Virus record (IMG/VR): IMGVR_UViG_3300031578_000066
Span: 1-47,915 of that record
Direction: 5' to 3' (one strand)
Source of the DNA: a virus
Length of the DNA stretch: 47,915 bases
Part shown: one piece after another, positions 445-47,514 of the stretch
Numbering within the stretch: position 1 is the stretch's first letter
Layout of the letters: each line of letters begins with the position of its first letter
The notes under the pieces: model-generated
The model's input: only the letters and a program-made list of their open reading frames with translations
Database searches by the model: none
What the model was told of the DNA's origin: nothing
Translations under genes and position numbers: made by a program

Positions 445-577
445 GCCTAACGTTTGACGGTTGGCGTTCGTTGCCGACCTTAATTAACAGATAAATTAAC
501 TTAAAAGTAGAAATATTATGAGTACAGAAAACGTATCAAAAGAGCAAATAGGCAATGACGTTAACCGTGTGTTAGCA
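445..577 (+). repeat. attC-like site 2, leader type (contains ATG of next gene)
   Basis: The box GCCTAAC (445-451) and the box GTTAGCA (571-577) flank complementary arms around GACGGTTGGCG and GTTAACCG. The spacer contains ATG at 518-520 opening a frame that crosses the recombination point. The deduced leader is MSTENVSKEQIGNDVNRV. It resembles the leader in the site at 2013-2142. Confidence 0.75.
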
Positions 578-678
578 ATTCGTTGTTTTCTTCTGATAAT
601 ATCAAGAAGTGGCACGCAATTCTAATAGGCAGAGGCAAACAAGAAATGTACGATAGCATCAAAAGCAATGATTGCTAA
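518..678 (+). pseudogene. Cassette gene fused to attC leader, apparently frameshifted
   Basis: The ATG at 518 opens a 35-codon frame that stops at 623-625. A second open stretch in another frame, beginning SDNIKKWHAILIGRG and ending at TAA 676-678, continues to the end of the cassette. This suggests that one coding sequence was broken by a one-base change near the T-rich run at about 585-597. It could be a real mutation, a sequencing error, or a 35-aa peptide as read. Confidence 0.45.
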
Positions 679-763
679 CGATTGGGTGTATGAGAAGGTT
701 TGCTTGTAGAAACTTTCAAATTACCCACAAAACTATAATCGAAGCACAAATGTAGTGCTTGCA
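674..763 (+). repeat. Degenerate attC-like remnant
   Basis: A GCTAACG box at 674-680 follows the end of the broken cassette gene, but no R' box or clear right arm is present before the next GCTAACG at 764. The segment contains a small hairpin (AAGCAC and GTGCTT around 742-760). It looks like an attC site that lost its right half by deletion. Confidence 0.35.
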
Positions 764-893
764 GCTAACGGTCGCAGGTATGTTTAGTGCCTGATTAAAT
801 AGTATAAACTTTAAATAATAAATAAAATGACAAAGAAAGTAGAAGATTCAAAACAAGCAGAAACACAGGCATTAAATATACCTGATGTTATGC
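764..893 (+). repeat. attC-like site 3, leader type
   Basis: GCTAACG (764-770) and GTTATGC (887-893) flank strongly complementary arms, CAGGTATGTTTAGTGCCTG and CAGGCATTAAATATACCTG. The ATG of the next gene (827) lies in the spacer between the arms. The arm and leader sequence is related to the site at 47385-47514. Confidence 0.85.
801..814 (+). promoter_or_regulatory. Conserved attC-spacer box AGTATAAACTTTAA
   Basis: The same 14-mer occurs at 1630-1643. Shorter versions occur on the minus strand in right-array spacers (AGTATAAAC at 45868-45876, AGTATAAACT at 46448-46457). It always lies in the spacer, reading towards the next cassette, so it could be a promoter element. No experimental basis is available here. 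Confidence 0.4.
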
Positions 894-1069
894 CAAGTAT
901 TGTTAGGAAGGGTTTCGTTCAGTGTATGGACGGAATGACTTCATGGATTAATACCCAAAGTGATGAAATGATTAAAGTTAATTTTAAAGATAGAGAAACC
1001 CAGTTGAAATATTACTGTAAATATGTTAAAGTAACTATCGAGGTTATTGAAGAAAGTGAACTCGATTAA
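827..1069 (+). CDS. Cassette gene with attC-encoded leader, 80 aa, unknown function
   Basis: The first 21 residues are encoded inside the upstream attC-like site, and the frame crosses the recombination point (GTTATGC at 887). The box itself supplies a second in-frame ATG (MPSIV), so two starts are possible. The rest is a small soluble protein with no recognised domain. The cassette ends (GTTATGCCAAGTATT and AATATTTGGCATAAC) are complementary. Confidence 0.7.
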   Translation: MTKKVEDSKQAETQALNIPDVMPSIVRKGFVQCMDGMTSWINTQSDEMIKVNFKDRETQLKYYCKYVKVTIEVIEESELD

Positions 1070-1076
1070 TATTTGG

Positions 1077-1204
1077 CATAACGGCTGCGTGTATGAAACG
1101 TTGTGGTTATAGGGCAGAAACCTACCAACTTACTACACAGCCAATGCGAGGCACAAACTTTGAATAACCACTACAGCCACAATGTTTTATACACCTTGTT
1201 ATAA
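1077..1204 (+). repeat. attC-like site 4
   Basis: CATAACG (1077-1083) and GTTATAA (1198-1204) flank long arms: GTGTATGAAACGTTGTGG on the left and CCACAATGTTTTATACAC on the right. A second inner pair is GGTTAT and ATAACC. The next gene has its own ATG outside the site. Confidence 0.85.
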
Positions 1205-1261
1205 CCAGTACGGTAAAAATAGTAGAAACTTAATTTGAAATACAAATAAAAATTTTTAAAT

Positions 1262-1573
1262 ATGAATGAATACAAATTAAAATTATTGGATTATATCTCA
1301 AAGAATTATGAGAATGTAGTAAAACCAGCACAGGGTGGTGAATATATTGAAATAGATTTAATACCAAACAGCCATGATGGATTACATGACTTACCAGAAA
1401 TATTAGAATATTGTGATAAAAACAATATGGATGTTAGAATGTTTATGCGTAGTTATCCATCTGAAAATGCTGATGGTATTAGAATGGGTAGATATTGGTA
1501 TTATATGCAAAAAACCACCAAGATGATATTGGATGATTTAAAAAATTTTAACCAAATAGAAGAACAAAAGTAG
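1262..1573 (+). CDS. Cassette gene, 103-aa protein of unknown function
   Basis: This is a soluble, acidic protein with no family that I recognise. It has its own ATG, 57 nt beyond the recombination box. The cassette ends GTTATAACCAGTAC and AGTATTGGTTATAAC are complementary except at one position, and the TAG stop (1571-1573) is the start of that terminal repeat. Confidence 0.75.
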   Translation: MNEYKLKLLDYISKNYENVVKPAQGGEYIEIDLIPNSHDGLHDLPEILEYCDKNNMDVRMFMRSYPSENADGIRMGRYWYYMQKTTKMILDDLKNFNQIEEQK

Positions 1574-1579
1574 TATTGG

Positions 1580-1672
1580 TTATAACGTTTAGTGTATGGC
1601 AAGTAAGCCACGCACCAATTTATCAAATTAGTATAAACTTTAATGGCTTATTTGCTATACACTGTGTTAGCA
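1580..1672 (+). repeat. attC-like site 5
   Basis: TTATAAC (1580-1586) and GTTAGCA (1666-1672) flank the arms AGTGTATGGCAAGTAAGCCA and TGGCTTATTTGCTATACACT. The spacer holds AGTATAAACTTTAA (1630-1643), shared with site 3. Confidence 0.85.
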
Positions 1673-1697
1673 ACTGGGCGGTTTTAAAACGAAAAAC

Positions 1698-2006
1698 ATG
1701 AAAATTAAAACAATTACAAAACTTGAAGATTTTAGATGTGAGAACTCGACAACTATTGGACTTCAATCAAAAACGCAACCCGATTTTAATTTACAACTTG
1801 TAAAAGTAGTGACTGAAGAAATTTATATTGGGATGGAAAAAGAAGTTGATTTATACAGGATATCATTAACTGATATGAAAATGTATTTAGATTCTTCTGG
1901 AACTTTAAGGGAATGTTTTGAAAAATTAGATGAATATTTCTTTATTTATTCATTTAATAAATTCTCTGATTTTTATGAATGGTATGTTGATACGTTACGA
2001 AAGTAG
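1698..2006 (+). CDS. Cassette gene, 102-aa protein of unknown function
   Basis: This small soluble protein is rich in acidic and aromatic residues, with an aromatic C-terminus (FYEWYVDTLRK). I see no known domain. It has its own ATG 25 nt after the recombination box, and a TAG stop within the complementary cassette end. Confidence 0.75.
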   Translation: MKIKTITKLEDFRCENSTTIGLQSKTQPDFNLQLVKVVTEEIYIGMEKEVDLYRISLTDMKMYLDSSGTLRECFEKLDEYFFIYSFNKFSDFYEWYVDTLRK

Positions 2007-2012
2007 CCTTGT

Positions 2013-2142
2013 TGCTAACGGTGACGGTTGGCGAAGTTGCCGATTAGAAATCACATAATTATAAATTTACTAAACACTTTATAAAATGGCAGAAACTTTA
2101 AATACAAACGAAAACGGCAATTGCGCTAACCGTGTGTTAGTG
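2013..2142 (+). repeat. attC-like site 6, leader type
   Basis: TGCTAAC (2013-2019) and GTTAGTG (2136-2142) flank complementary arms that include GGTTGGCG, TTGCCG and CGGCAA, CGCTAACC. The ATG at 2086 lies between the arms, and the leader MAETLNTNENGNCANRV reads through the recombination point. Confidence 0.85.
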
Positions 2143-2394
2143 GCAGTTAATCATTTTAAACCTATTAGTCCAGAATGGTTACTTAATAAGTATAAAGGAT
2201 TGAGAGAGCCAAATGAGAAAAGAGACTCAGATTATTCTCCATTACATGATAGTATAATGGACGCAATATCATCAAATTTACACGAATATGCTCCAGAAGC
2301 ATTTGGGACTGCATGGACATCTTCTATGTTTCCAGAACGGTTAACAAAGGAAATAATGCGGATTATGGAACAGCAGATTAATCGTGGTTTTTAA
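2086..2394 (+). CDS. Cassette gene dependent on attC-encoded start, 102 aa
   Basis: The first 17 codons lie in the attC-like site that belongs to the previous cassette, and the cassette body begins exactly at a codon boundary (GTG then TTA). The body has no in-frame ATG before about residue 65, so the attC start seems necessary for this protein. The product is soluble with no recognised domain. The cassette ends GTTAGTGGCA and TGCCACTAAC are complementary. Confidence 0.75.
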   Translation: MAETLNTNENGNCANRVLVAVNHFKPISPEWLLNKYKGLREPNEKRDSDYSPLHDSIMDAISSNLHEYAPEAFGTAWTSSMFPERLTKEIMRIMEQQINRGF

Positions 2395-2398
2395 TTGC

Positions 2399-2442
2399 CA
2401 CTAACTATTATATATCAATATAGTGACCTAAAACATTGATTA
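2399..2442 (+). other. attI-like junction in front of integrase remnant
   Basis: The last cassette box (CACTAAC, 2399-2405) is followed by TATTATATATCAATATAGTG and the integrase start. The same stretch, with one difference in that 20-mer, follows a different cassette end at the intact integrase (44848-44891, minus). The shared part begins at the AAC of the box, which defines the probable attI insertion point. Confidence 0.65.
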
Positions 2443-2534
2443 TGAATATTAAAAGCAAGTCAACTCTCGAAAAGTTTGAAAATATTTTGAATGTAGATCA
2501 TATTCAAAATTTACATGAATTTATTTTCGAATAA
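2442..2534 (+). pseudogene. Truncated integrase (N-terminal 14 codons, then divergent)
   Basis: MNIKSKSTLEKFE is identical to the start of the intact integrase (from 44848, minus), and so is most of the upstream DNA. The homology is lost shortly after, and the frame stops at 2532-2534 after 30 codons. It is a deletion remnant of a duplicated integrase and cannot be active. Confidence 0.85.
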
Positions 2535-2538
2535 ATTT

Positions 2539-2565
2539 GTAACATCTGCAAATAATTTACGTATA
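2539..2565 (+). promoter_or_regulatory. Element promoter motif GTAACA-N11-TTTACGTATA
   Basis: GTAACA (2539-2544) is followed after 11 nt by TTTACGTATA (2556-2565). The same pair of boxes with exactly 11 nt between them precedes several other genes in the window. Here it ends 28 nt before the ATG of the rIIB-like gene. Confidence 0.65.
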
Positions 2566-2593
2566 GGAATTAGAAAACATTAATTAAATAGTT

Positions 2594-3904
2594 ATGAGAT
2601 GTAAAAAATGTGGTAATGTAATTAATCTAACCATTTTCGGAATGCCTGATGATATTTGTTGGGGATGCGTTGGAAATGGAAAAAATGAAATTCTAAACAA
2701 AAACATAAAAAGAAATATTATGACAAACATTCAAGGAATTAAAATTGGTAATGTTATGAATTTATCTATTAACGGTAAACTACATAAAAAGAATTGTGGT
2801 ACAAATGAAGAAGCCACTGAACTTTATAAGCTTGTTCTAGCTGCAAGAGAAAACCCAAGTGATGAAAATATCAAAGCAATTCGGTTGTTCTTAAATGAAA
2901 AAACCCGCATTGCTTATCTTTGTGGTTTAGAAACCGATTTGGAATCAGGTGAAGTATTCCTTGCCGGATTTAACACACCAATCCCTTTAACACTTTTGGA
3001 AGTAATTAAAGAATATCATGAAAATGGCTATCCATTGCAAGCAATTTTGAACTTCTGGAAGTTATTGATGATTAATCCCGATCAGCGGGTTCGTACTGAT
3101 TTATTCGATTTTATTAAAGTTCATGACTTTACATTAACCGATACTGGTTATATGTTAGCGTATAAAGCGGTTGCTATAGCACAAAAAGAAAATGGCGACA
3201 ATGTATTAAAAGAATATATATCTGATCAATACTTACATGTAAAAAAAGACTGGAAATGCAACCCAAATAAATACGTGGTTTATAAAGACTTTGCTGACAA
3301 TACCCTTAAAATTTCAAAATTCGATGTTGTTGCGGGATGGGATCAAAAAACAAAAAATGTTGAAGTACTGGGCAAACTCGGTGAATTATATGCAGCAATT
3401 GTTTCGAAAGATAATGAAGCAGATGAAGCAATTACTTATACTGATAAATATACCCATAAAATGGAAATTAAACTGGGTAAGCCAGTAACACAAGAGCGTA
3501 AAGAATGCGACGCTAATTACCGTAAAGACTGTTCCGTAGGGTTACATATTGGTAGTACCCGTTACGTGAATAGTTTTGCTAGAAATTCGGATGTAATATT
3601 GGTTTGTTTGGTGAATCCCATGAATGTGGTTGCGGTACCTGAATATGATCATTCAAAAATGAGGGTATGCGAATATTTTCCAATTGGGGTTGCCAAATAT
3701 GAGAATGGCAAAATTGAAGTTACTGAACAACTATATTTTGAAAATGATTATTGTACATACGAACAAAAGGAATTAGAGGAACAAATTGCTAAATTACAAG
3801 CAAACGAGTTGCCTTTTGAGGCAGCCATTAATGCTGAGAAGGAAGGAAGGCCAATGTCCGAGTTGAAGAAAATGATTGAGTCAAGACTGATTGATATTGT
3901 TTAA
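2594..3904 (+). CDS. rIIB: rIIB-like phage protein
   Basis: Residues from about 43 onward match the phage rIIB family, whose T4 member acts with rIIA at the membrane in lysis timing and exclusion of other phages. Family-like segments include FLNEKTR, LQAILNFWKLL, GYMLAYKAV, VGLHIGSTRY and LVNPMNVVAVPEYD. The ORF begins with about 42 extra residues holding two CxxC pairs (CKKC and CWGC), a zinc-ribbon-like extension. An internal ATG at 2720 (MTNIQGIKIG) is probably the ancestral start. No rIIA partner is visible in the window. A terminator follows. Confidence 0.8.
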   Translation: MRCKKCGNVINLTIFGMPDDICWGCVGNGKNEILNKNIKRNIMTNIQGIKIGNVMNLSINGKLHKKNCGTNEEATELYKLVLAARENPSDENIKAIRLFLNEKTRIAYLCGLETDLESGEVFLAGFNTPIPLTLLEVIKEYHENGYPLQAILNFWKLLMINPDQRVRTDLFDFIKVHDFTLTDTGYMLAYKAVAIAQKENGDNVLKEYISDQYLHVKKDWKCNPNKYVVYKDFADNTLKISKFDVVAGWDQKTKNVEVLGKLGELYAAIVSKDNEADEAITYTDKYTHKMEIKLGKPVTQERKECDANYRKDCSVGLHIGSTRYVNSFARNSDVILVCLVNPMNVVAVPEYDHSKMRVCEYFPIGVAKYENGKIEVTEQLYFENDYCTYEQKELEEQIAKLQANELPFEAAINAEKEGRPMSELKKMIESRLIDIV

Positions 3905-3919
3905 TACATGTTTCAAATA

Positions 3920-3960
3920 AAATCCTTCACTTGCTTTTGAATTTTAAGTGGAGGATTTTT
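3920..3960 (+). terminator. Rho-independent terminator after rIIB
   Basis: AAATCCTTCACTT (3920-3932) pairs with AAGTGGAGGATTT (3946-3958) with one G-T pair, followed by a T run. It lies 16 nt after the rIIB stop codon. Confidence 0.75.
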
Positions 3961-3976
3961 AATTATTTAAAAATAT

Positions 3977-4204
3977 ATGATAAATATTAAATTAAATTTA
4001 AAGGAATTGATTGAGTTTGATTGTACTAAAAAAGAAAAAATTCAATTAGCTAAATATATTCTTTCTGAATTATTGACAACCAAGGAACATGATAAATTCC
4101 TTAAGCAGTTGCTTGAAGAGGAACTGGAATATAGAATGGAATTTAAACAAAATACTGACATTATTAATGCCCATAACATTTTAATTAAAAATTTATGTGT
4201 TTAG
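3977..4204 (+). CDS. Small helical protein, 75 aa, unknown
   Basis: The protein is charged and probably all-helical, with Lys- and Glu-rich segments and no recognised domain. Its last codons overlap the start of the next gene by 10 nt (ATG at 4195), which suggests translational coupling. Confidence 0.6.
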   Translation: MINIKLNLKELIEFDCTKKEKIQLAKYILSELLTTKEHDKFLKQLLEEELEYRMEFKQNTDIINAHNILIKNLCV

Positions 4205-4572
4205 GAACCAGACAAAAACGAGCTAAGATAGCTAAGGCTGATATGATAGTTTATAAACATCTAAAATCTATTGATAACAATAATTTTTTAACTTCATATA
4301 GATATTCGCAAGTCAAAATTGGTCAAATTTATAAATCCGAACTGGATAAACCCGATAGTGATGGCAATATTGAAGTGGGTTTGCATTCATTTGTTAATGT
4401 CAATGACGCTGAAATGACTGCCAAATATTGGTGTGAAACCCTCGTTAAATGCGTAATTCCCAAAGGAAGTAGGTATTATGAAGGAACGTTCATGTTTTTT
4501 CATGGAAACGAATTTCTTTCAATAGCATCAGATACATTACAATACTTGGAGATATTACCAATTGTTCGTTGA
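4195..4572 (+). CDS. Phage-type conserved hypothetical, 125 aa
   Basis: The layout (short basic start, GLHSFVNV segment, then KCVIPKGSRYYEG near the C-terminus) is of a kind I associate with small phage proteins of unknown role, but I cannot name the family with certainty. It follows 3977-4204 in an overlapping pair. Confidence 0.6.
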   Translation: MCLGTRQKRAKIAKADMIVYKHLKSIDNNNFLTSYRYSQVKIGQIYKSELDKPDSDGNIEVGLHSFVNVNDAEMTAKYWCETLVKCVIPKGSRYYEGTFMFFHGNEFLSIASDTLQYLEILPIVR

Positions 4573-4597
4573 AACATTTTCGATTATTTTACGTATA
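4571..4597 (+). promoter_or_regulatory. Element promoter motif (GAAACA-N11-TTTACGTATA)
   Basis: GAAACA (4571-4576), 11 nt, then TTTACGTATA (4588-4597). It ends only 6 nt before the ATG at 4604, so a transcript from it would be nearly leaderless for that gene. Confidence 0.5.
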
Positions 4598-4603
4598 GTA
4601 CTT

Positions 4604-4903
4604 ATGGCAACAGCAAAAGATTTAAAAGATAAATATAAGGATTTAGATTTGAGAATGAAATCTCTTAAGTCCAAAATATCATCAAAACTGTTTCAATTGT
4701 GTAAACAAAATCCTGATGTTATTATTGACCATACCAGTAGTGTAAGTAAAACACCGAACATGCCAATAAAGACCAATGCATTGGATAAAATGAGAATAAT
4801 AACCTCATTATCAATTACAACACAACTTACATATATTGATGTAATTGAAAAGTATCTTGAGCAAAAACATCAGCACAGACAATTAGAATTTGACTATGAT
4901 TAA
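4604..4903 (+). CDS. Small protein, 99 aa, unknown
   Basis: The ATG at 4604 (MATAKDLKDKYKDLDL) is chosen over a non-ATG start 42 nt upstream. The N-terminal 40 residues look like a charged helix or short coiled coil, and the C-terminus is acidic. No domain is recognised. Confidence 0.6.
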   Translation: MATAKDLKDKYKDLDLRMKSLKSKISSKLFQLCKQNPDVIIDHTSSVSKTPNMPIKTNALDKMRIITSLSITTQLTYIDVIEKYLEQKHQHRQLEFDYD

Positions 4904-5011
4904 AACTAATAACATCTGTGAAAATACATTAAAAATGATTGTCTTATTGAAGTAAGAGTATTACTTATGATACATAAAATTATGAAAAACTTAAATTAAC
5001 AGACAAATATT

Positions 5012-5209
5012 ATGAATACAGAAAATGTTAAATCGAAGAATAGCAAATTATCTATACTTGTTATTATAAACCGTTTATTTAATAAAAAATGTCAAAAATG
5101 TGGAAGCAAAAGGACAAAGAAAATGTATGCTTATAACGGCCCAGATTTTACATGTGGATATGATATTGAATATAATTGTGAAAATTGTGGTAATATTTGG
5201 ATGTGTTAA
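5012..5209 (+). CDS. Small zinc-ribbon protein in a partly decayed cassette
   Basis: Two Cys pairs, CQKC near residue 29 and CENC near residue 56, fit a zinc ribbon. The 5' region (about 4995-5030, with AACAGA and ATTATGAATACAGAAAA) resembles the spacer and leader start of the attC-like site at 445-577, but no R' box follows. The cassette end TTATAAC is at 5215, and its matching start was not found, so the 5' part of this cassette is probably lost. Confidence 0.6.
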   Translation: MNTENVKSKNSKLSILVIINRLFNKKCQKCGSKRTKKMYAYNGPDFTCGYDIEYNCENCGNIWMC

Positions 5210-5214
5210 ATGGC

Positions 5215-5344
5215 TTATAACAGTTGATAATATGAAATGGCTGGGATTTGGAGCTACTAACTTATCCCACGCTACAAAACTAATAGGTAGCAAGCTGGCT
5301 AAAAAATCCGATAACACCCAGCTATTTTATATTATGTGTTAGCG
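5215..5344 (+). repeat. attC-like site 7
   Basis: TTATAAC (5215-5221) and GTTAGCG (5338-5344) flank the arms ATAATATGAAATGGCTGGG and CCCAGCTATTTTATATTAT. The site separates the zinc-ribbon gene from the membrane-protein cassette. Confidence 0.85.
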
Positions 5345-5355
5345 GTAGTACGGTT

Positions 5356-5568
5356 ATGATTTACTTAATTATTACAGTTTGGTTGGCATTAGGAATACAT
5401 AGTGCCTGTTATTTAGTAAAACAATACACAAAAACATTTGATTTTACTCAAAGTGAAATTCCAATGCTTATCCTATGCGTTTTATTTCCAATCGCAACAC
5501 ATTTAATGACATACTTAGTTTATGGAAGTATTAATAAAAAAAGCAAGGTGTTGTTTAAGCGGAAATAG
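5356..5568 (+). CDS. Cassette gene, 70-aa membrane protein
   Basis: Two hydrophobic segments (about residues 3-20 and 33-58) and a basic C-terminus (KKSKVLFKRK) predict a small inner-membrane protein. The cassette starts GTTAGCGGTAGTAC and ends AGTATTACCGCTAAC. The TAG stop at 5566-5568 opens that end repeat. The function is unknown. Confidence 0.7.
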   Translation: MIYLIITVWLALGIHSACYLVKQYTKTFDFTQSEIPMLILCVLFPIATHLMTYLVYGSINKKSKVLFKRK

Positions 5569-5574
5569 TATTAC

Positions 5575-5667
5575 CGCTAACGTTCGGCAATATGAAACGG
5601 TTGCCTTGTAAGACGTTTCAAATTTAGTAATAGCTTGACGGCAACTGTTTTATATTGCTTGTTAGGC
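5575..5667 (+). repeat. attC-like site 8
   Basis: CGCTAAC (5575-5581) and GTTAGGC (5661-5667) flank the arms GGCAATATGAAACGGTTGCC and GGCAACTGTTTTATATTGC. Confidence 0.85.
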
Positions 5668-5682
5668 ACAGTACTTTATCAA

Positions 5683-5880
5683 ATGACAAACAAAGAACGA
5701 AATTTAATTAAGAAGAAAATACTTAAATGCTTAACCGAAGATTTTAAAGGAAATCAAGCGATATTCGATAAAAAAGAGGGTTGGCAAGTATTTAACGGAA
5801 CTGATTTAGATATGGTAATGAGTGCCGTATGCAAAGGATTAGAAATGGCAAAATATGAGATGTGCGAAGGCGTTTCTTAG
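5683..5880 (+). CDS. Cassette gene, 65-aa protein of unknown function
   Basis: The first ATG after the recombination box (5661) is used. Longer readings would start inside the attC arm. The product is a small basic-then-acidic protein with no known domain. The cassette ends GTTAGGCACAGTACT and AGTATTGCGCCTAAC are nearly complementary. Confidence 0.7.
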   Translation: MTNKERNLIKKKILKCLTEDFKGNQAIFDKKEGWQVFNGTDLDMVMSAVCKGLEMAKYEMCEGVS

Positions 5881-5886
5881 TATTGC

Positions 5887-5936
5887 GCCTAACAATTATA
5901 TATAAATTTATACTTGTAATTAATTGTATTTTAATA
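5887..5936 (+). other. Second attI-like junction
   Basis: The cassette box GCCTAAC (5887-5893) is followed by AATTATATATAAATTTATAC and then an integrase start. The layout equals 2399-2442 and the intact integron at 44848-44891, but the sequence has diverged after the AAC. Confidence 0.55.
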
Positions 5937-6175
5937 TGTTAAATGAAAAAATTATAAAGATTTGTAAACAAAAGTTTATATATTTTAATTATTCACAAAG
6001 AACTTCTGAAATATATTTACATTATATAATAAAGTTTTTAGAACAATTTCAATGTAAACAAGTAATTCACTTAAACTCAAAAGATTTTGAAAATTATTTA
6101 TTAAACTATAATTATACTTCTATAAGTCAACAAAATCAAATAATAGGGAATCTAAGGATTTCATTGATTCAATAA
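5936..6175 (+). pseudogene. Truncated second integrase (N-terminal domain only)
   Basis: The 79 residues resemble the N-terminal SAM-like domain of the integrase at 44042-44848 (shared pattern FxNY, YxHYxxxFL, SIxQQNQ) but are only moderately similar, so this is a different lineage. The frame ends just after QQNQIIG, and no catalytic domain follows. It is a dead remnant at the end of the second cassette array. Confidence 0.8.
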
Positions 6176-6206
6176 CACCTAAAGATTATAAACCCGCTTA
6201 TCTACC

Positions 6207-6683
6207 ATGACATTACCAGAAAAAAGAAAAAATAAAAGGTATGCGAAATTGTTTAATAAACTCGCACTTATTTTTATCACATTATTCGTTATTGACGTTG
6301 TTTTAGTTTTAACATTTAAAACTAACTATCCAGTATTTGTATTTGTGAGCATAATATTATCACTTGTTCTAGCATTTATCTGTGGTTCATTAAGTACAAC
6401 ATTTCGAATGCGATTACTTAAATATAAGTCAAGCATTGAATATTATCGGCAATTATTTGTTTTTAATATGATACTTGACTTAGTTACAGATGATATTACA
6501 ACAGTTAATATTACCACAGCATATAAACTTTATGATGAATGTCTACATGAAAAGGATTTAAAGTCACTTTTATGTGGTTACATAACTGGAATTAGAAAGA
6601 TGAGTGGTGATGCTGAAAGCATACAAAAGGCCAATGAGTTAATTACAATAATGAGAAAAGTATATAAACCCAGACTTATTTAA
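6207..6683 (+). CDS. Membrane protein with cytoplasmic helical domain, 158 aa
   Basis: Two adjacent hydrophobic helices (about residues 18-37 and 42-62) follow a basic N-terminus, and a helical soluble domain of about 90 residues follows. No family is recognised. It starts the rightward block of small genes. Confidence 0.65.
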   Translation: MTLPEKRKNKRYAKLFNKLALIFITLFVIDVVLVLTFKTNYPVFVFVSIILSLVLAFICGSLSTTFRMRLLKYKSSIEYYRQLFVFNMILDLVTDDITTVNITTAYKLYDECLHEKDLKSLLCGYITGIRKMSGDAESIQKANELITIMRKVYKPRLI

Positions 6684-6689
6684 ATTATT

Positions 6690-6878
6690 ATGGAAGATAT
6701 TGTTCAAGCCACTGAGGATTTAATTGATGCAATTATTGACTTACATCCAAACATTGATGTGGATAATCCCAAACAACTCCGATTATACTTAGCAATTCAT
6801 GAATGTAAGGGCAGCATTAACAACCATAAATTAAAAAAGCATAATGATAAGAATCAAAAAAATATTAGCCAAGATTAA
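6690..6878 (+). CDS. Small protein, 62 aa, unknown
   Basis: It begins 6 nt after the previous stop. The N-terminal half is acidic and the C-terminal half basic. No domain is recognised. Confidence 0.5.
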   Translation: MEDIVQATEDLIDAIIDLHPNIDVDNPKQLRLYLAIHECKGSINNHKLKKHNDKNQKNISQD

Positions 6879-7005
6879 GTCCAAACCATTATCTTTTAAA
6901 TCTGAAAAGATGTTGGAGGATTGTACACATAGTATGATTAAACATACATCAATGTACACTTACGCCAAACATAAAAAGAAATCGAAAAATCTGTATAAAT
7001 TTTAA
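6844..7005 (+). CDS. Small very basic protein, 53 aa
   Basis: The ATG at 6844 overlaps the end of the preceding gene by 35 nt, and TAA is at 7003-7005. About a third of residues are Lys or Arg. It fills the space up to the gene at 7017. The overlap makes it only a moderately safe call. Confidence 0.45.
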   Translation: MIRIKKILAKIKSKPLSFKSEKMLEDCTHSMIKHTSMYTYAKHKKKSKNLYKF

Positions 7006-7016
7006 TTAAAGGTATT

Positions 7017-41200: not shown

Positions 41201-41210
41201 ATTATAAATT

Positions 41211-42119
41211 TTATTTATGTTTACAATTATCAAAATGATATCTTTTCATATTACCTCCACCACCATATTTACCACAATACGGACATATCGATTTGGTTGA
41301 ATTTCGTGGTTCTTTTAATTTTTTTTTTGTTTCTGATGAAACTATTCTACCCACATTTCCCTTTGATATGTTTTCACACCATTCTGGAGTAAATGTTCTT
41401 TTAATACCCCTTTTACTTTCAGATATTTTCTTCTTGGTTTCTTCACTCAAAATCTTATTTTTGCCATATATTGATAATATTTTTTTTGTTTCTTCACTAA
41501 CAATTCTTCCCTTATTTTTTTTAGATATTTTAATTTTTGCCTCTTCAGTATGTTTTTTACCATAAAAAGGTGCGTTTTCACCCAAATATTTTCCCCTCTT
41601 ACTTTCAGATAATTTTTTCTTAGTTTCATCGCTAACTAATTTATTTAGATGTGTTTTACTTATAATTTTTTTATGTTGTTCATTTGGCACATATCTTTTA
41701 TCGTGGCCACGTTTTTTTCTCATTTTATCTTTAGCTTCTTCACTATGTTTTTTACCATACATTGGGTTATTTTTACCGCTAATATCCATGCCAGCCATTC
41801 CACCCGCAGACGCTAATGCTTGATTATAAAAATATTTAGATTTAACGACATCATATTTTATTTGTAATCTAAGTTCAGCTTCATATGCTTCTTTTCTACT
41901 AACATGTTCAGACAGTATTAATACTTCAAATAAGTCGAAATTTTCAATTAATTCATTTTTAAAAATTTCAGAATATTTTTTTGACTTAACCGACCCACGA
42001 TATCCATTTTCAATTTTTTTTAAACTCGTTGACCCAATATAAAATGGTGGTAATTTTTCACCTGAATAAATAATTAAATAAGTTACATACATATAAATGA
42101 GATTTAACCATAAATACAT
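41211..42119 (-). CDS. GIY-YIG homing endonuclease inserted in the DNA ligase gene
   Basis: The GIY-YIG start is VTYLIIYSGEKLPPFYIGST (residues about 12-31), with a catalytic-type Arg and Glu further on. Residues 110-290 hold at least five copies of a NUMOD3-like DNA-binding repeat (for example NPMYGKKHSEEAKDKM, NAPFYGKKHTEEAKIKI). A C-terminal CPYCGKYGGGGNM zinc finger closes it. ATG 42092 is an alternative start. It separates the two ligase genes with only about 10 nt on each side. Confidence 0.92.
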   Translation of the reverse strand: MYLWLNLIYMYVTYLIIYSGEKLPPFYIGSTSLKKIENGYRGSVKSKKYSEIFKNELIENFDLFEVLILSEHVSRKEAYEAELRLQIKYDVVKSKYFYNQALASAGGMAGMDISGKNNPMYGKKHSEEAKDKMRKKRGHDKRYVPNEQHKKIISKTHLNKLVSDETKKKLSESKRGKYLGENAPFYGKKHTEEAKIKISKKNKGRIVSEETKKILSIYGKNKILSEETKKKISESKRGIKRTFTPEWCENISKGNVGRIVSSETKKKLKEPRNSTKSICPYCGKYGGGGNMKRYHFDNCKHK

Positions 42120-42131
42120 AAGTACTTCTAA

Positions 42132-42860
42132 TTATTCAAGTAATGGTGAAAATTTATTTAAAATATCCGAAACCGAATGGCAGATTCCATCAATTTCAAT
42201 ATAATCATCAGCATTAATTAAAATATTTAATTCACGACTTTTCATGGTAATTTCAGCATTAATGACACAATCTTTCAATTGTGATAACTCCCCAATGAAT
42301 TTGGGATTATCTAAAATGGTTGGTTCTCCTTGTCTTGACTCATTATTTACCTCGCCACCTTGTATAATGCAATTGATAAATCTTCCATCCATTTTTTCTT
42401 GACTATAACAAGTACCTTTAGCAAGTAACTTTAAAACTAAATCCCTTGAGTAAGGTTTACAACCCAAATAGCCAACTTTTTCAATCAAATTAGGAAATAC
42501 CTTATTGATATTTCTAGTGCCCATACCAATTTTACAATCCTTTTCGATTATGCGTTCGATAATATCTGCATCATCCCTATCAATATGCTCTAATACACCT
42601 TTTAAATGTGATATTGCTGAATTGCCAGTAATTTCACGATTACTTAATGCAGCTAATTGGTCAATTGCCCAACTCAGGGACATTCCATCGCCCCAGTCAT
42701 AATCAGGTATTTGTTTAATATAAAACTTAACTCGTTTTGAGTTAGCTAAATATAATACTCTTTTTAAAAGTTCGTTATTCTCGTACTTGCTAAGAATATT
42801 CATCTTTTCATTAGTACCGGACTCATTTGAGATTTCGTCAAAAATTTGTTTAATTTTCAT
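42132..42860 (-). CDS. ATP-dependent DNA ligase, N-terminal part of split gene
   Basis: It carries an N-terminal DNA-binding domain and the adenylation motif CYSQEKMDGRF (Lys at residue about 154), followed by NAEITMKSREL (motif III region). It stops after SPLLE, before motif IIIa. The rest of the enzyme is encoded at 40391-41200. The two products probably associate to form one ligase. Confidence 0.88.
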   Translation of the reverse strand: MKIKQIFDEISNESGTNEKMNILSKYENNELLKRVLYLANSKRVKFYIKQIPDYDWGDGMSLSWAIDQLAALSNREITGNSAISHLKGVLEHIDRDDADIIERIIEKDCKIGMGTRNINKVFPNLIEKVGYLGCKPYSRDLVLKLLAKGTCYSQEKMDGRFINCIIQGGEVNNESRQGEPTILDNPKFIGELSQLKDCVINAEITMKSRELNILINADDYIEIDGICHSVSDILNKFSPLLE

Positions 42861-43084
42861 TCAAGTATATTTATTGTCATGTAGTTAGATGATTCAATTT
42901 TCTTGTCGGTATATAAGTGCATGTTTTTAATATATTTTGGTTTAACGAAGAAATGTTTAATTTTCAACAACATATTTTTCCATTTACTTTTATACCAAAC
43001 ATATTCACCATTAACCATTGTTGCCGTATTTATTATCACAAATGGCAATAATTTAAATCCATTTTCATTGCTCTGCTCAATCAT
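42857..43084 (-). CDS. Small protein, 75 aa, unknown
   Basis: ATG 43084 is used because the longer frame starts with TTG. Basic centre (KSKWKNMLLKIKHFFVKPKY). It overlaps the ligase start by 4 nt. Confidence 0.55.
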   Translation of the reverse strand: MIEQSNENGFKLLPFVIINTATMVNGEYVWYKSKWKNMLLKIKHFFVKPKYIKNMHLYTDKKIESSNYMTINILE

Positions 43085-43085
43085 T

Positions 43086-43265
43086 TTATATCTTTTTGTA
43101 AAGATATTCAATTAAATCAATACTACAAAACTTTTTAAATGCCCAGATCAACCATTTACAAATATTGATTATTGCCATTACACCAATAATAATAAGTGCT
43201 AATAGAATCATAATAATAACGATATTGTCATTTATTACTTTTAGATATTCTCCGAGTTCATTCAT
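43086..43265 (-). CDS. Single-helix membrane protein, 59 aa
   Basis: A long hydrophobic helix (residues about 14-34) is followed by an amphipathic, basic tail. The ATG at 43265 overlaps the stop of the ATP-grasp gene. Unknown function. Confidence 0.6.
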   Translation of the reverse strand: MNELGEYLKVINDNIVIIMILLALIIIGVMAIINICKWLIWAFKKFCSIDLIEYLYKKI

Positions 43266-44008
43266 CAGATTTCAGCTAATATTTTATTTATAATTTCTTT
43301 AAATGCTCTGTATAACATATTTGGATAATATGGTGAATTAAATGAATATAAACCACATGAGAAGAATTCGTGACATTCAATTATAAAAGTTCCACTATCA
43401 TTAACACCAACATCTAGTGTATAAGCAATTGGTGCTAATTCATATTCATCGATCATTTCTTTTATTGCATCGGCATTAGGAAATTTAGTGAATTCGCCTA
43501 AATAATTTTGTAGTCCCACTAACTTTCTATTATAAACGAAAGCACGCCATTCACTATCAATACTAATTACCTCAGAAAATTGATAATTACCTTTAGGAAG
43601 TTCATGGAGTTCATCTTCATTAAAGATACCGCAAATATTTTTTATTTTATCGTTAGATTTAACAAACATTTTTCCTTTTAAATCCTTTTCAGTTCCATTA
43701 AATATCTTTCTAAGTGAAAAACGTTCATTTAATAATTCAATAGGAACGTTTATTGGTTTAAGTGTGGTGTTATGAAATTGTTGTAGAAAGGCTAAAACAA
43801 ACTCAACACTACCAATTGGTACATATGTATGGTGAAATGATTTAAAAACAAATTCCTTTTGATCAACGCCGGTATCAAAAAATCTATAATAGGTCTTATT
43901 ATTAACATCATTTCTATTTAACCAATTTTTAAAATCAATAGATTTTAAAAGTGTAAAAGCAAAATCATGCTCAATTTTTTTATCAATTGTTTGAATTAAA
44001 AATTTCAT
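43265..44008 (-). CDS. ATP-grasp protein (R2K clade type)
   Basis: The C-terminal part has the order FVKSNDKIKN, SEWRAFVYNRKLVGLQNY, YTLDVGVNDSGTFIIECHEF and SCGLYSF. This is the pattern of the R2K clade of ATP-grasp proteins found in phages and proposed to modify proteins or peptides. It is the first gene of the long leftward block and has its own host-type promoter. Confidence 0.8.
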   Translation of the reverse strand: MKFLIQTIDKKIEHDFAFTLLKSIDFKNWLNRNDVNNKTYYRFFDTGVDQKEFVFKSFHHTYVPIGSVEFVLAFLQQFHNTTLKPINVPIELLNERFSLRKIFNGTEKDLKGKMFVKSNDKIKNICGIFNEDELHELPKGNYQFSEVISIDSEWRAFVYNRKLVGLQNYLGEFTKFPNADAIKEMIDEYELAPIAYTLDVGVNDSGTFIIECHEFFSCGLYSFNSPYYPNMLYRAFKEIINKILAEI

Positions 44009-44028
44009 AATCGTTATTTTGTTAATAA

Positions 44029-44058
44029 CAAAGATATAACTTTAAATTGGTAATACAA
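44029..44058 (-). promoter_or_regulatory. Bacteroidota primary-sigma promoter for the ATP-grasp operon
   Basis: TTG (44058-44056), 19 nt, TATCTTTG (44036-44029) on the minus strand. The -33 box lies inside the last codons of the integrase gene. The match in sequence and spacing equals that at 19865-19894. Confidence 0.8.
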
Positions 44059-44848
44059 CATTTTTTAATAAATTTGTACTGACATGTGCATAAACTTCTG
44101 TAGTTTTTGAACTTGAATGACCTAAAAGATTTTGAATAATTCTTAAGTCGGTACCATTTTCGAGTAATGTTGTTGCATAGCTATGTCTCAACAAATGAAA
44201 ATGATATTTATCGCCAATATATTTTTTAACAATTTCATTACATGATGCTGTTGAATATTGTAATTTATTTTGTCCATTAAATAGATATTCTTTTGGTTTA
44301 TATTCAATAAAATACTTTCTCAGTAATTCTAAGTTATGCTCTGATAATGGGACAATTCTATCTTTTCTGCCTTTGGGTTGAATAACATAAATTATCATGC
44401 GTTTAGAATCAACATTTTCAATTTTTAAATTACAAATTTCACTAACTCTCATTCCCGTTCCATATGTTAACGATATAATTGCACGATGTTTTATGTTTTT
44501 AATCTTACTGATTTTATTAAGCAAAAATAACTTATCGATTATTTGTGGTAATTTTTTTTCATTACGTGGTCGTTCAATATTAAAACTAATCATCTTAACA
44601 CCAACAATATGTTTATATAACAATTTAACTGAGCTAATAAATTGATTCTGTTGTGGAATAGAACTATATTTTTTATTAATTAAATAATTAATTGCTTTAT
44701 TTTGAGATATGTGATAAATATCATTATCAAAACCATTTAAAAATTGTTGGGCATGATAAATATACGTTTTAATCGAGTTCTCGGCATAATTTTTAAACCT
44801 CAAAACCTTTTCAAACTTTTCGAGAGTTGATTTGCTTTTAATATTCAT
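44042..44848 (-). CDS. Intact tyrosine recombinase of the integron-like system
   Basis: It has an N-terminal SAM-like domain and a catalytic domain with Arg in GTGMRVSEI (residue about 134), Lys in PKGRKDR, HxxR in HLLRHSYAT (218-221), His in LLGHSS (244) and Tyr in TTEVYAHVS (253). The Lys-to-HxxR distance is about 55 residues, so there is no room for the extra domain of classical IntI. The size of 268 aa is Xer-like. ATG 44848 is used since the longer frame starts with TTG. Cassettes read towards this gene. Confidence 0.92.
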   Translation of the reverse strand: MNIKSKSTLEKFEKVLRFKNYAENSIKTYIYHAQQFLNGFDNDIYHISQNKAINYLINKKYSSIPQQNQFISSVKLLYKHIVGVKMISFNIERPRNEKKLPQIIDKLFLLNKISKIKNIKHRAIISLTYGTGMRVSEICNLKIENVDSKRMIIYVIQPKGRKDRIVPLSEHNLELLRKYFIEYKPKEYLFNGQNKLQYSTASCNEIVKKYIGDKYHFHLLRHSYATTLLENGTDLRIIQNLLGHSSSKTTEVYAHVSTNLLKNVVLPI

Positions 44849-44891
44849 AATCAATATTTTAGGTCACTATGTTGATATATAATAGTTAAGC
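44848..44891 (-). other. attI-like site of the intact integron
   Basis: The first cassette ends with GCTTAAC (44891-44885), followed by TATTATATATCAACATAGTG and the integrase start. The stretch after the AAC is nearly identical at 2406-2442, where a different cassette precedes it. Confidence 0.7.
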
Positions 44892-44907
44892 ACAAGCCAA
44901 AGTGCAT

Positions 44908-45129
44908 CTATTCGGCATCGGATTTTTTCGGTTGTGGTTTCCAATCGCCATCTGCATCTAAATGGGCAGGCGGCCAACCGTGTTTTCTAACTTGCAACAT
45001 TCGCATAAATCTAATCCACATTCTAACTAATCCATTTACGGCAAAATAAGCCGCCCCGTTCAATAATATAGTCATTCCTACAAATGGCCAAAAGCCTGAG
45101 AACGCTATGTCAAAAATTTTCTCTATCAT
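44908..45129 (-). CDS. Cassette gene, 73-aa membrane protein
   Basis: One or two hydrophobic helices (about residues 10-36), then a basic segment (RMLQVRKHGWPPAHL) and an acidic, Lys-ended tail. The GC content looks higher than that of its neighbours, which suggests separate acquisition. It is the cassette next to the integrase, thus probably the most recent insertion. Confidence 0.75.
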   Translation of the reverse strand: MIEKIFDIAFSGFWPFVGMTILLNGAAYFAVNGLVRMWIRFMRMLQVRKHGWPPAHLDADGDWKPQPKKSDAE

Positions 45130-45151
45130 GTTATTTTATTTAAAGGCCAGT

Positions 45152-45246
45152 GCTTAACAATATGTATAGCAAAAAGCCGTAATTAATATTCGTTCTTTGC
45201 TTGGTCGTTAGTGGTACGGCTTCATGCCATACATTCAACGTTATAG
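45152..45246 (-). repeat. attC-like site 9
   Basis: GCTTAAC (45152-45158) and GTTATAG (45240-45246) as read on the plus strand, with arms ATGTATAGCAAAAAGCCGTA and TACGGCTTCATGCCATACAT. Confidence 0.85.
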
Positions 45247-45259
45247 GTAATAAAATTTA

Positions 45260-45454
45260 CTACCGTTCTACCTTAATCATATCATTTGAGAAGTAAGCAC
45301 TCACTCTATCTTCTTTTCCATAAGGTTTGAAGTAGAGTTGTCCATCTTCTTTCTTATAAATTTCGTGTTCACCATCCCTTTGAACATCAACAATGTCACC
45401 TTCTTTTAACTCTACTTCAAACTTGTCAAAGCATTTCACATATTTGTTTTTCAT
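45260..45454 (-). CDS. Cassette gene, 64-aa protein of unknown function
   Basis: The sequence VELKEGDIVDVQRDGEHEIY suggests a small SH3-like or KOW-like beta-barrel. It is basic and acidic in alternation. No partner is evident. Confidence 0.7.
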   Translation of the reverse strand: MKNKYVKCFDKFEVELKEGDIVDVQRDGEHEIYKKEDGQLYFKPYGKEDRVSAYFSNDMIKVER

Positions 45455-45474
45455 AATCCGTAAATTTTACATAC

Positions 45475-45570
45475 CTATAACAAAGTGTATAAGTAATGTG
45501 GCTAATTAAATTTGTTGTTAAGTCGAAAGTATGTGCAAAGCCACACTACTTATACACCCGACCGTTATGT
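45475..45570 (-). repeat. attC-like site 10
   Basis: CTATAAC (45475-45481) and GTTATGT (45564-45570) flank the arms GTGTATAAGTAATGTGGCT and AGCCACACTACTTATACAC. Confidence 0.85.
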
Positions 45571-45574
45571 GGCA

Positions 45575-45808
45575 TTAGTCCACAAACAAAACCTCCACAG
45601 GGTTGAAAACTCTCAATTTCGTTTTAGTGCCAAAACTATTATAATATATCTCGTATGTGGTTAAGTTTATTTCTTCAATTTTTTCAACCCTTTCACGCCC
45701 AAATTCAGATACTTCCGCTTTCTCGGTTACGTACTGCGTTCCAGTTTTTTCTCCAATATGTGTAACATCCATCACACGTCCATTCCATTTTATGCTTTTA
45801 ATTTTCAT
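45575..45808 (-). CDS. Cassette gene, 77-aa protein of unknown function
   Basis: ATG 45808 is used. The longer frame would start in the attC arm. The product is beta-rich (IKSIKWNGRVMDVTHIG) with an acidic middle, perhaps a small barrel. Confidence 0.7.
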   Translation of the reverse strand: MKIKSIKWNGRVMDVTHIGEKTGTQYVTEKAEVSEFGRERVEKIEEINLTTYEIYYNSFGTKTKLRVFNPVEVLFVD

Positions 45809-45821
45809 AATAAATAACGCC

Positions 45822-45942
45822 ACATAACAATGTATATAAGGCATTGCCTTTGTGGTCTTTTTAAATGTTTATACTAAATTTAATCTTTCGTCCATTCTAT
45901 CAAAGTTTGTGAGGGCAACGCCTCATATACTTACCGTTAGCA
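45822..45942 (-). repeat. attC-like site 11
   Basis: ACATAAC (45822-45828) and GTTAGCA (45936-45942) flank the arms GTATATAAGGCATTGCC and GGCAACGCCTCATATAC. The spacer contains AGTATAAAC on the minus strand. Confidence 0.85.
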
Positions 45943-45952
45943 AACATATAAA

Positions 45953-46094
45953 TTATTTACGTTTACGTGGTTTAAGTTTTTTGCAACCTTTTATTGCTTC
46001 TTTTTGCATTTCAGGATTTCTAAATATATCTGCGATGTTTATTGTTACATCGCCTTTATGTTCTCTTTTTAATGGTAGTGGTTCTCTTGGCATA
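45953..46094 (-). pseudogene. Small cassette gene, frame broken near its start
   Basis: From ATG 46094 the frame closes after 12 codons. One base out of phase, a basic frame (KREHKGDVTINIADIF, ending KPRKRK) runs to TAA 45953-45955. The break lies at the GGG at 46080-46082. The cassette between sites 11 and 12 has no other gene candidate, so this is a frameshift or a sequencing error. Confidence 0.45.
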
Positions 46095-46107
46095 ATTTTT
46101 ACGATTT

Positions 46108-46199
46108 GCTAACAAGGTATATACGAAATACCCTATTAAGGTTTGTACTAATTTTTAAGTTTGTAGTTAGGGTACTTCGTATATACCCAATCGTTAGGC
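46108..46199 (-). repeat. attC-like site 12
   Basis: TGCTAAC (46108-46114) and GTTAGGC (46193-46199) flank the arms GGTATATACGAAATACCCTA and TAGGGTACTTCGTATATACC. Confidence 0.85.
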
Positions 46200-46205
46200 G
46201 TAATG

Positions 46206-46385
46206 CTACGGAGCAATGCGCTTCCCTTTTGATATTATTAAATCTTCAAGTTTCTTTTTTGCTTCGTCTGGTGTATCACCATATTTTACCGCACCAATGT
46301 AAGCAGGTTCATCTCCAACATATGCTCTAGCTATATAAGTTCCATCTTTTAATTTGGTAGTTCTAACATTAAATATTTCATTCAT
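46206..46385 (-). CDS. Cassette gene, 59-aa protein (HicB-like fold possible)
   Basis: ATG 46385 is used. The sequence TKLKDGTYIARAYVGDEPAY and GDTPDEAKKKLEDLI resembles the strand-strand-helix of HicB-type antitoxin domains, but no HicA partner is present. It ends CCG TAG within the complementary cassette end. Confidence 0.65.
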   Translation of the reverse strand: MNEIFNVRTTKLKDGTYIARAYVGDEPAYIGAVKYGDTPDEAKKKLEDLIISKGKRIAP

Positions 46386-46409
46386 AATCGTTTCTATTAA
46401 AGCACATAC

Positions 46410-46539
46410 GCCTAACAATATGTATAAAATATAGGCGGTTCAGTGCAAGTTTATACTTTTCTACTTTCTATCTAGCTTCGTGTGGGCGGATAAGGTAGTA
46501 GTTCCTATTCGCCTACATTTCATACATTTAACGTTATGT
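46410..46539 (-). repeat. attC-like site 13
   Basis: GCCTAAC (46410-46416) and GTTATGT (46533-46539) flank arms with ATGTATAAAATATAGGCG and CGCCTACATTTCATACAT. It is close in sequence to the left-array site at 104-230. Confidence 0.85.
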
Positions 46540-46544
46540 GCAAT

Positions 46545-46835
46545 TTACCACACACCATTTTCCTTTATACACGTTTCAATTTTATCTTTAGTCCACAAAT
46601 GTTCAACAGGAAAATTTTTAATTACTCTTGTTGATATGCTCATAAATGGTCTATTATATTTTTTAATACATTGTTTTATATGTCTAACCATTTCTTCTTT
46701 ATTATCATCTGGAGAAACACCAAATTCATAACCAAGAATTGCAGAACCACCACATCTTATATCAGTAGAATCATTTTCTTTACATGATACATCATATAAT
46801 ATTGCATCACACACTTCAATTGTTTTTGTTTCCAT
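46545..46835 (-). CDS. Cassette gene, 96-aa protein of unknown function
   Basis: ATG 46835 (METKTIEVCDAILYDV) is used. Several Cys (CDA, CKEN, CGGS, CIKK, CIKE) and a short YEFGVSPDDNKEEM motif are present, with no known family. A promoter-like motif lies in the attC spacer upstream (46907-46933). Confidence 0.7.
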   Translation of the reverse strand: METKTIEVCDAILYDVSCKENDSTDIRCGGSAILGYEFGVSPDDNKEEMVRHIKQCIKKYNRPFMSISTRVIKNFPVEHLWTKDKIETCIKENGVW

Positions 46836-46860
46836 AATTAAAAATTTTAAATTAAACTGC

Positions 46861-46981
46861 ACATAACAACAAATATAAAACATTGCTGTTGTAATTTCTA
46901 TTTATTTATACGTTAATTTTCAAGTTTTGTTACATTAATTATCATTTGTGTTGTAACGTTTCATATTTGCAACCGTTAGCA
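46861..46981 (-). repeat. attC-like site 14 carrying the element promoter motif
   Basis: ACATAAC (46861-46867) and GTTAGCA (46975-46981) flank the arms AAATATAAAACATTGCTGTT and GTGTTGTAACGTTTCATATTT. The spacer is closely similar to that of the site at 47798-47915. Confidence 0.85.
46907..46933 (-). promoter_or_regulatory. Element promoter motif inside an attC spacer
   Basis: GTAACA (46933-46928), 11 nt, TTAACGTATA (46916-46907) on the minus strand, reading towards the cassette gene at 46545-46835. Box sequence and spacing equal those upstream of backbone genes. Confidence 0.6.
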
Positions 46982-46987
46982 ATAATA

Positions 46988-47143
46988 CTACTTACATGCA
47001 TCATAATTAAATGTTACTTTACTTAAATCAATATTCATTGAAAGTAACCAACATATTAAATGGTATGTTTTGCCATCAACTTCAATAAAATGATGTCCAA
47101 TTTTTTCACATTTTTTATAACAACACTTTACATCTTTTTCCAT
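46988..47143 (-). CDS. Cassette gene, 51-aa Cys-containing protein
   Basis: ATG 47143, TAG 46988-46990. CCYKKC at residues 7-12, plus later Cys and His, suggest metal binding. It follows the gene at 47146 by 2 nt with no attC between, so this cassette carries two genes. Confidence 0.65.
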   Translation of the reverse strand: MEKDVKCCYKKCEKIGHHFIEVDGKTYHLICWLLSMNIDLSKVTFNYDACK

Positions 47144-47145
47144 AA

Positions 47146-47448
47146 TTAAAATTTTATGATATTTTTTGTTATGTTAGTAAATTCTAATTTAGATAAATTG
47201 TATTTATTCATGAGTTTATCACCAATTGGATATAATGCTACTAATAACTCATTGTTTTTTCTATTATAAATTAAAATTGTTTCATTTTCTTTACTAAATT
47301 TAATTGCATCGTCAAAAACATGTATATTACTTTCATTTAGTTCTAAAATTAAATCATTTTTTACGTTATTTTTAACCGTACTATTGCTAACAACAGGTAT
47401 ATCCAATTGCTGCTTTTGTTTTTTTAATTTACTTTTATCTGTTTTCAT
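47146..47448 (-). CDS. Cassette gene dependent on attC-encoded start, 100 aa
   Basis: The first about 20 residues (MKTDKSKLKKQKQQLDIPVV) are encoded inside the attC-like site 47385-47514, and the frame crosses the GTTAGCA box. The cassette body has no in-frame ATG until about residue 79. The rest is soluble, alpha/beta, of unknown function. Confidence 0.75.
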   Translation of the reverse strand: MKTDKSKLKKQKQQLDIPVVSNSTVKNNVKNDLILELNESNIHVFDDAIKFSKENETILIYNRKNNELLVALYPIGDKLMNKYNLSKLEFTNITKNIIKF

Positions 47449-47514
47449 ACTTTTGTTCTTTTATTTAAGTTTATTTGTTATTTACGCAACTGTATATACC
47501 TGCGGACGTTATGT
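47385..47514 (-). repeat. attC-like site 15, leader type
   Basis: TGCTAAC (47385-47391) and GTTATGT (47508-47514) flank the arms CAGGTATATCCAATTGC and GCAACTGTATATACCTG. The ATG of the next gene (47448) lies in the spacer. Arms and leader are related to the site at 764-893. Confidence 0.85.

Follow-up and report, generated by a model that had tools for sequence, protein, structure and literature searches.

Integrons are viewed as bacterial platforms, whose promoterless genes are read away from the attI site and depend on translation signals from outside. Signals within the recombination sites themselves have been described, since ORF-11 and ORF-18 of attI1 and short open reading frames (ORFs) in attC act through a stop followed by reinitiation, while the core GTTRRRY can provide a TAG stop and translation is able to overcome the attC stem-loop (review PMC8876359). 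In the chromosomal integron of Treponema, transcription of intI runs toward attI and that of the cassettes away from it (PMC3607928). The accessible text of Qi et al. 2023 (PMC9892861) describes integrons and clusters of attC sites lacking an integron integrase (CALINs) in phages, among them Polaribacter phage P12002L, whose attCs are divergent, and reports that IntI1 used 5 of 6 phage attCs in the laboratory. Here we have analysed a virus contig of 47,915 bases (IMG/VR record IMGVR_UViG_3300031578_000066; the whole stretch is called the window), in which a sequence-only reading had noticed attC-like sites that were thought to donate a start codon and leader peptide to the next cassette. Our data suggest a phage-borne, inverted-cassette, integron-like system of Bacteroidota phages with self-starting cassettes and recombination on the AAC side, and we give this reading a probability of roughly 0.86.

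In the proposed system, an XerA-like phage tyrosine recombinase would insert cassettes at attI (YAAC followed by TATTATAT), directly ahead of the recombinase gene, with recombination taking place at the left core (the AAC side). In transcription order, each cassette would consist of an attC-like site, a 5' untranslated region (UTR) and start codon, the ORF and RYYYAA, with the ORF flipped and the layout as viewed from attI remaining integron-like. In about one third of the cassettes, the start codon lies in the attC loop, and the ribosome would translate the right arm of the attC together with the gene, as its N-terminal leader. Start and gene would then not be set apart by the hairpin, and the body could do without a start. 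Such a leader would be inherited with its gene in one cassette. The action of the recombinase, the hairpin as its substrate, the strand used and the translation of the leaders are predictions from the nucleotide sequence. Cassette bodies were defined as running from GTTRRRY to the matching RYYYAAC, with a palindromic site of about 80-120 nucleotides between bodies.

The boundaries of the mobile unit can be read from natural gain, loss and duplication. The Polaribacter phages Freya_1 to Freya_10, found by protein search, differ in record length, and with the ends of the circular records joined across the array clean unit differences were seen. Freya_9 reads GCCGCTTTTTACCAAC directly followed by ACCCCTATAACAACAATAAG and then the recombinase, while Freya_10 carries between these two halves GTTCTACAGCTATGCG, a leader beginning ATG AAA AAC ACA, GGTGGTGTTAGCAACCGAAGG, an ORF and TAATTGTTGCTAAC. 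This is a single insertion at attI, in which the inserted unit (GTTCTACAG, the ATG and leader, GTTAGCAAC, the ORF and GTTGCTAAC) lies between TTTTTACCAAC and ACCCCTATAAC; palindrome, leader and gene thus form one piece, set directly at attI. The further differences between Freya phages 1 and 2, 2 and 5, 5 and 6, 6 and 8, and 8 and 9 break at AAC too. Between the Polaribacter phages Danklef_1 and Danklef_4 a methylase cassette inside the array is present or absent with AAC junctions, and the neighbouring attC remains with its downstream ORF. In the window, the 3' part of a cassette ORF, at 47507..47616 (minus strand), is identical to positions 1-110, a different attC follows each copy and the break lies just after AACG, and locus L047 has an exact 394-nucleotide duplication of one unit of attC plus body. 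No recent event (at least 97% identity) with a breakpoint at the right core GTT was seen among the compared arrays. Every recent event seen has its breakpoint at the left core (AAC), which makes the attC, the leader and its own ORF the mobile unit. The 110-nucleotide inverted identity of the contig ends (1-110 and 47507-47616) falls within a cassette gene, and a cassette that occurs twice in the phage is probably where the contig stops.

These boundaries bear directly on the sequence-only reading, which had assigned the palindrome to the preceding cassette and made expression depend on the cassette behind which a gene had landed, any inserted body gaining its start as a translational fusion. 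Such donation would agree with the classical attC, which closes its cassette on the 3' side, and with the related leader modules found ahead of unrelated bodies (see below), but it is contradicted by Freya_9/10 and Danklef_1/4 and by the AAC breakpoints of all recent gains, losses and duplications, in which attC, leader and ORF move together; in addition, the ORFs point toward attI and the phase of a leader is matched to its own body. We regard donation of leaders by the cassette ahead as very improbable, and it was dismissed on the unit boundaries in Freya and Danklef. On this evidence the palindrome is not part of the preceding cassette, and the gene is independent of the cassette ahead. The reading phase, which had been proposed as a check across homologues, is indeed kept, and it gives no support to donation since leader and body make up one cassette.

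Palindromic sites with RYYYAAC and GTTRRRY cores and an ATG in the loop were found at all four positions where they had been noticed, which supports their attC-like nature, while the frame is open across the right arm and on into the gene, as described, at three of them. The site at 764..893 (plus strand) opens the gene at 827..1069 (plus strand), with 80 residues that begin with MTKKVEDSKQAETQALNIPD followed by VMPSIV (LNIPD then V at the junction) and an alternative in-frame ATG at the core (GTTATG). The site at 2013..2142 (plus strand) opens the gene at 2086..2394 (plus strand; 102 residues, MAETLNTNENGNCANR followed by VLVAVNHF), and the site at 47385..47514 (minus strand), with its ATG at 47448, opens the gene at 47146..47448 (minus strand; 100 residues, MKTDKSKLKKQKQQLDIPV followed by VSNST). 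These two genes were said to have no other early ATG, and the next in-frame methionine is indeed found at codon 58 and codon 80, respectively. The remaining site, at 445..577 (plus strand), is a degenerate exception. Its leader ATG at 518 opens an ORF (518-625) of just 35 residues, out of phase with the body behind; this short body (571-679, arms GTTAGCAAT and ATTGCTAAC) is open in a frame other than that of the leader (VSNSLFSSDNIKKWHAILIGRGKQEMYDSIKSNDC), and the site that follows is rearranged. The two types of leader described earlier correspond to reading phases 0 and 2, and in general only these can be used, since in phase 1 GTTAG gives a TAG stop.

In about one third of the cassettes, the gene start is an ATG within the attC-like site with a frame through the right arm, and in the remaining ones the ATG lies mostly 15-60 nucleotides behind the right core. 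The longest-ORF rule gave 64 leader-type ORFs, whereas a stricter rule (an open body, in phase with a leader of 8 codons or more) gave 56 in-phase leaders among the 173 cassettes of about 50 loci. This compares with 25.2±3.6 expected when bodies were permuted (maximum 38 of 5000), and with 32.5±3.1 (maximum 44) when the permutation was restricted to leader cassettes. The 15 nucleotides before the leader ATG are as A-rich as those at body starts (0.56 vs 0.54, p=0.36), and richer than those at other ATGs in attC (0.40, p=3e-11). Of the 58 matched leader frames, at least 34 lack a further in-frame ATG over the first 24 codons of the body, and 13 of these are without any at all. Differences between related leader attCs are concentrated at third positions (65 vs 40 and 36), and the ratio of non-synonymous to synonymous differences (pN/pS) of the leaders, from pairs which are not independent, is 0.55 in frame vs 1.01 and 0.73 in the shifted frames. 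Known domains, an Rv2179c-like exoribonuclease (L091) and Mom (L107), start 7-15 residues past the core in leader-type genes. The stop codon is the TAA of the left core TAAC in 30 of 171 genes, and in 19 of the 56 leader genes. Taken as a pattern in the sequences, this suggests that the start codons in attC-like sites are real and that the leaders are translated.

Several points weigh against the proposed reading. In the window, the leader that begins at ATG 518 does not match the phase of its body. Some leaders may be optional, as in ten leader frames the core is immediately followed by an ATG (GTTATG), and the longest-ORF calls include spurious ones, mainly in phase 1, where GTTAT is read as xGT TAT (Cys-Tyr). 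Starts other than ATG within the bodies could be in use as well. The pN/pS signal is modest, with 0.63 in an independent subset, the Danklef recombinase is itself truncated, which bears on the agent of the Danklef array change, and both recombination and expression are predicted from sequence. The lengthening of frames by the longest-ORF rule, like the GTTATG frames and the clearly spurious phase 1 calls, would also fit leaders that are chance upstream extensions of genes with true starts in their bodies. The phase matching, about 8 standard deviations above expectation, the start-type A-rich context, the 34 of 58 frames lacking an early body ATG and the known domains right behind the core all speak against chance extension, which we find quite improbable.

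The right array of the window is accompanied by an intact, XerA-like tyrosine recombinase of 268 residues (44042..44848, minus strand; PF00589, E=4e-40), with its 5' end adjoining attI. Its similarity to XerA/XerC/D-like recombinases is full-length and continuous (4a8e, E=4e-36; 5hxy, E=5e-31), and it scores 177 bits with NCBIfam XerA, which is under the cut-off of 220, and 138 bits in two pieces with IntI TIGR02249, under the cut-off of 265. The IntI-specific insert of about 48 residues is missing, 38 residues facing 86 of IntI4 (2a3v). The attI of this array (44843..44890, minus strand; YAAC followed by TATTATATATCAACATAGTGACC) is common to the left and right copies from AAC on, while the preceding cassettes differ. 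The left copy at 2402..2534 (plus strand) is a second attI with a truncated recombinase start (MNIKSKSTLEKFENIL), 89 nucleotides with 94% identity to 44888-44800 and 12 of 14 identical residues. A third, truncated recombinase (5936..6175, plus strand) follows an attI-like CTAACAATTATATATAAATT and has 33% identity over 58 residues (E=1e-8). The attI is conserved, with TATTATAT or close variants after YAAC in most of 47 array-bearing viral loci; the RYYYAA ahead of this attI half differs at each of these loci, and attI begins exactly at AAC in most of the 47, behind different cassettes. A recombinase with 64% identity in a 78-kb virus (L003) has an in-frame TAA at 2527-2529, and decay of the recombinase next to arrays recurs in L003, L016, Danklef and the two window copies.

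Three cassette arrays are present in the window, two at the contig ends and a third at about 4950-5893, and each finishes at one type of junction, made up of YAAC, a fixed AT-rich stretch and the recombinase start, with the recombinase intact once (right, 44848-44042) and truncated twice (2442-2534 and 5936-6175). The automatic chain finder demands arm pairing, and arm complementarity is for this reason no independent evidence; the chain scores were 108 for the right array, 53 and 13 for the left and 20 for the third, compared with a shuffled maximum of 12. The right array (44885..47915, minus strand) has eight bodies (44885-45158, 45240-45481, 45564-45828, 45936-46113, 46193-46416, 46533-46867, 46975-47391 and 47508-47804), with attC-like sites between them and ORFs directed at the recombinase. 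The left array (1..2405, plus strand) has bodies at 224-451, 571-679 (the degenerate one), 887-1082, 1198-1586, 1666-2019 and 2136-2405. The third array (4950..5893, plus strand) has bodies at 5338-5581 and 5661-5893 and a leader-like ORF at 5012-5209; together with its own attI-like site and truncated recombinase (4950-6175) it is absent from the sequence-only reading. The contig also carries T4-like genes (RIIB-like, Dda-like helicase, RNA and DNA ligases, DHFR), and Rfam and tRNA scans over the window gave no matches.

With the alignment of the recombinase, 378 viral and more than 500 bacterial relatives were found, and the viral loci analysed are the best 80 by similarity, many of them metagenomic contigs. 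An array lies directly upstream of the recombinase in 42 of 57 viral loci (best loci with at least 1.5 kb upstream), and in none of 77 bacterial loci with at least 1.5 kb upstream at the same array threshold; on that count, at the threshold used, the bacterial relatives were dismissed as a source of the arrays. The arrays hold 2-12 cassettes with inverted arms specific to each body, and the longest ORF is directed at the recombinase in 169 of 176 cassettes from 50 related loci. In the attC-like sites, pairing of the R and L arms is present with a stem of about 18 nucleotides, and in all 161 measurable sites the spacer on the left exceeds that on the right in length, mostly 5 vs 1-2 nucleotides. 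To the authors of the Freya paper, the integrase pointed to a temperate lifestyle (PMC8776804), in line with an ordinary lysogeny integrase that happens to lie beside repeats with no cassette function. The conserved attI, the arrays with body-specific arms and the precise gain and loss of units make this explanation extremely improbable.

Among the related loci, a 462-kb huge phage (L033, LR756500.1 392566-411367) has a long flipped-cassette array, related to that of the window and closing in a degraded recombinase start. In Polaribacter phage P12002L (L039, 37263-39833) a cassette-like chain extends over Mom and methyltransferase genes with no recombinase nearby, and this chain and the published CALIN may be one and the same. 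The strict Bacteroidota promoter motif was found in 8 of 173 cassettes vs 2.6 in shuffled sequence (maximum 7) and the relaxed motif at chance level, and on these counts promoters were dismissed as a general feature of the cassettes.

Leader modules are shared between genes. The attC and leader family MKDLxHIKRFNESEENLNISD/V precedes four different bodies (two in L094, one each in L086 and L098), L069 has a variant of it, and the similarity among these modules stops just past GTT. Modules common from AAC to just past GTT, with different bodies behind, would be expected if both cores were used, flipped-strand recombination at AAC moving whole cassettes and rarer recombination at GTT exchanging the bodies behind an attC and leader, with combinatorial N-termini as the outcome. 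This explanation seems unlikely, considering that recent breakpoints at GTT were not seen at the identity threshold given above, that the body-flank sharing described below indicates other routes, and that in the pair L085 (4677-5244) and L087 (2333-3626) the swapped 5' module stops within the gene, 8-11 codons past the ATG. These two loci have the same preceding cassette and gene with two different 5' modules (attC, 5' UTR and the first 8-11 codons), a recent N-terminal swap joined in frame; GTT was dismissed as its swap point because the module ends within the gene. In L057, L069, L076 and L097, cassettes with common 5' and 3' body flanks (80-160 nucleotides) have different ORFs between them, as if ORFs had been replaced within a fixed cassette frame.

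The leaders are thus modular over evolutionary time, the palindrome and start being joined to different genes, with no recent shuffling at GTT seen. It is tempting to speculate, though only tentatively, that modules of a phage attC with 5' UTR, start and leader seed new cassettes by capturing start-less ORF fragments in frame, and in-frame capture of this kind would account for unrelated cassette proteins sharing one leader. To our knowledge, the origin of integron gene cassettes is still unexplained. Common leaders on unrelated proteins bear on this question, and seeding, if true, would be a concrete route to the origin of gene cassettes.

Flipped, apparently self-starting cassettes are widespread in Bacteroidota phages, including the 462-kb huge phage and the isolates Freya and Danklef, and searches based on IntI would probably overlook them. 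The proposed system offers a new explanation for the variable length of Freya and for its “lysogeny integrase”, and it can be tested directly in the isolated phages, whose arrays vary naturally. Our literature search on flipped cassettes and phage integrons, which covered work other than preprints, gave PMC9892861 and the Treponema integron as closest and no prior description of the inverted-cassette system, and an earlier description may exist.

The phage system shares with class 1 and sedentary chromosomal integrons a tyrosine recombinase whose 5' end lies at attI, small tandem cassettes, RYYYAAC and GTTRRRY cores with arms matched per cassette, and attI-proximal gain and loss, with cassettes coming and going as whole units in Freya, Danklef and L047. 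Unlike in integrons, the phage ORFs are flipped toward attI and the recombinase, the attC lies 5' of its own gene with the putative start codon within it, the spacers of the attC are asymmetric, and the recombinase is XerA-like. Because this recombinase has no IntI insert and the orientation of the cassettes is reversed, the system is not a standard integron. The Treponema integron is similar in having recombinase and cassette genes on one strand (PMC3607928), but the phage recombinase is transcribed away from attI, and it is the cassettes that are flipped. The accessible text of Qi et al. 2023 (PMC9892861) describes no flipped cassettes, phage-specific XerA-like recombinase, attI or starts within the sites, such as those found here. 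Finally, ORF-11, ORF-18, the short ORFs in attC and the phage leaders have in common that translation signals lie inside a recombination site, while the phage leader, unlike ORF-11, ORF-18 and these short ORFs, would be fused to the cassette protein and is part of the cassette itself.

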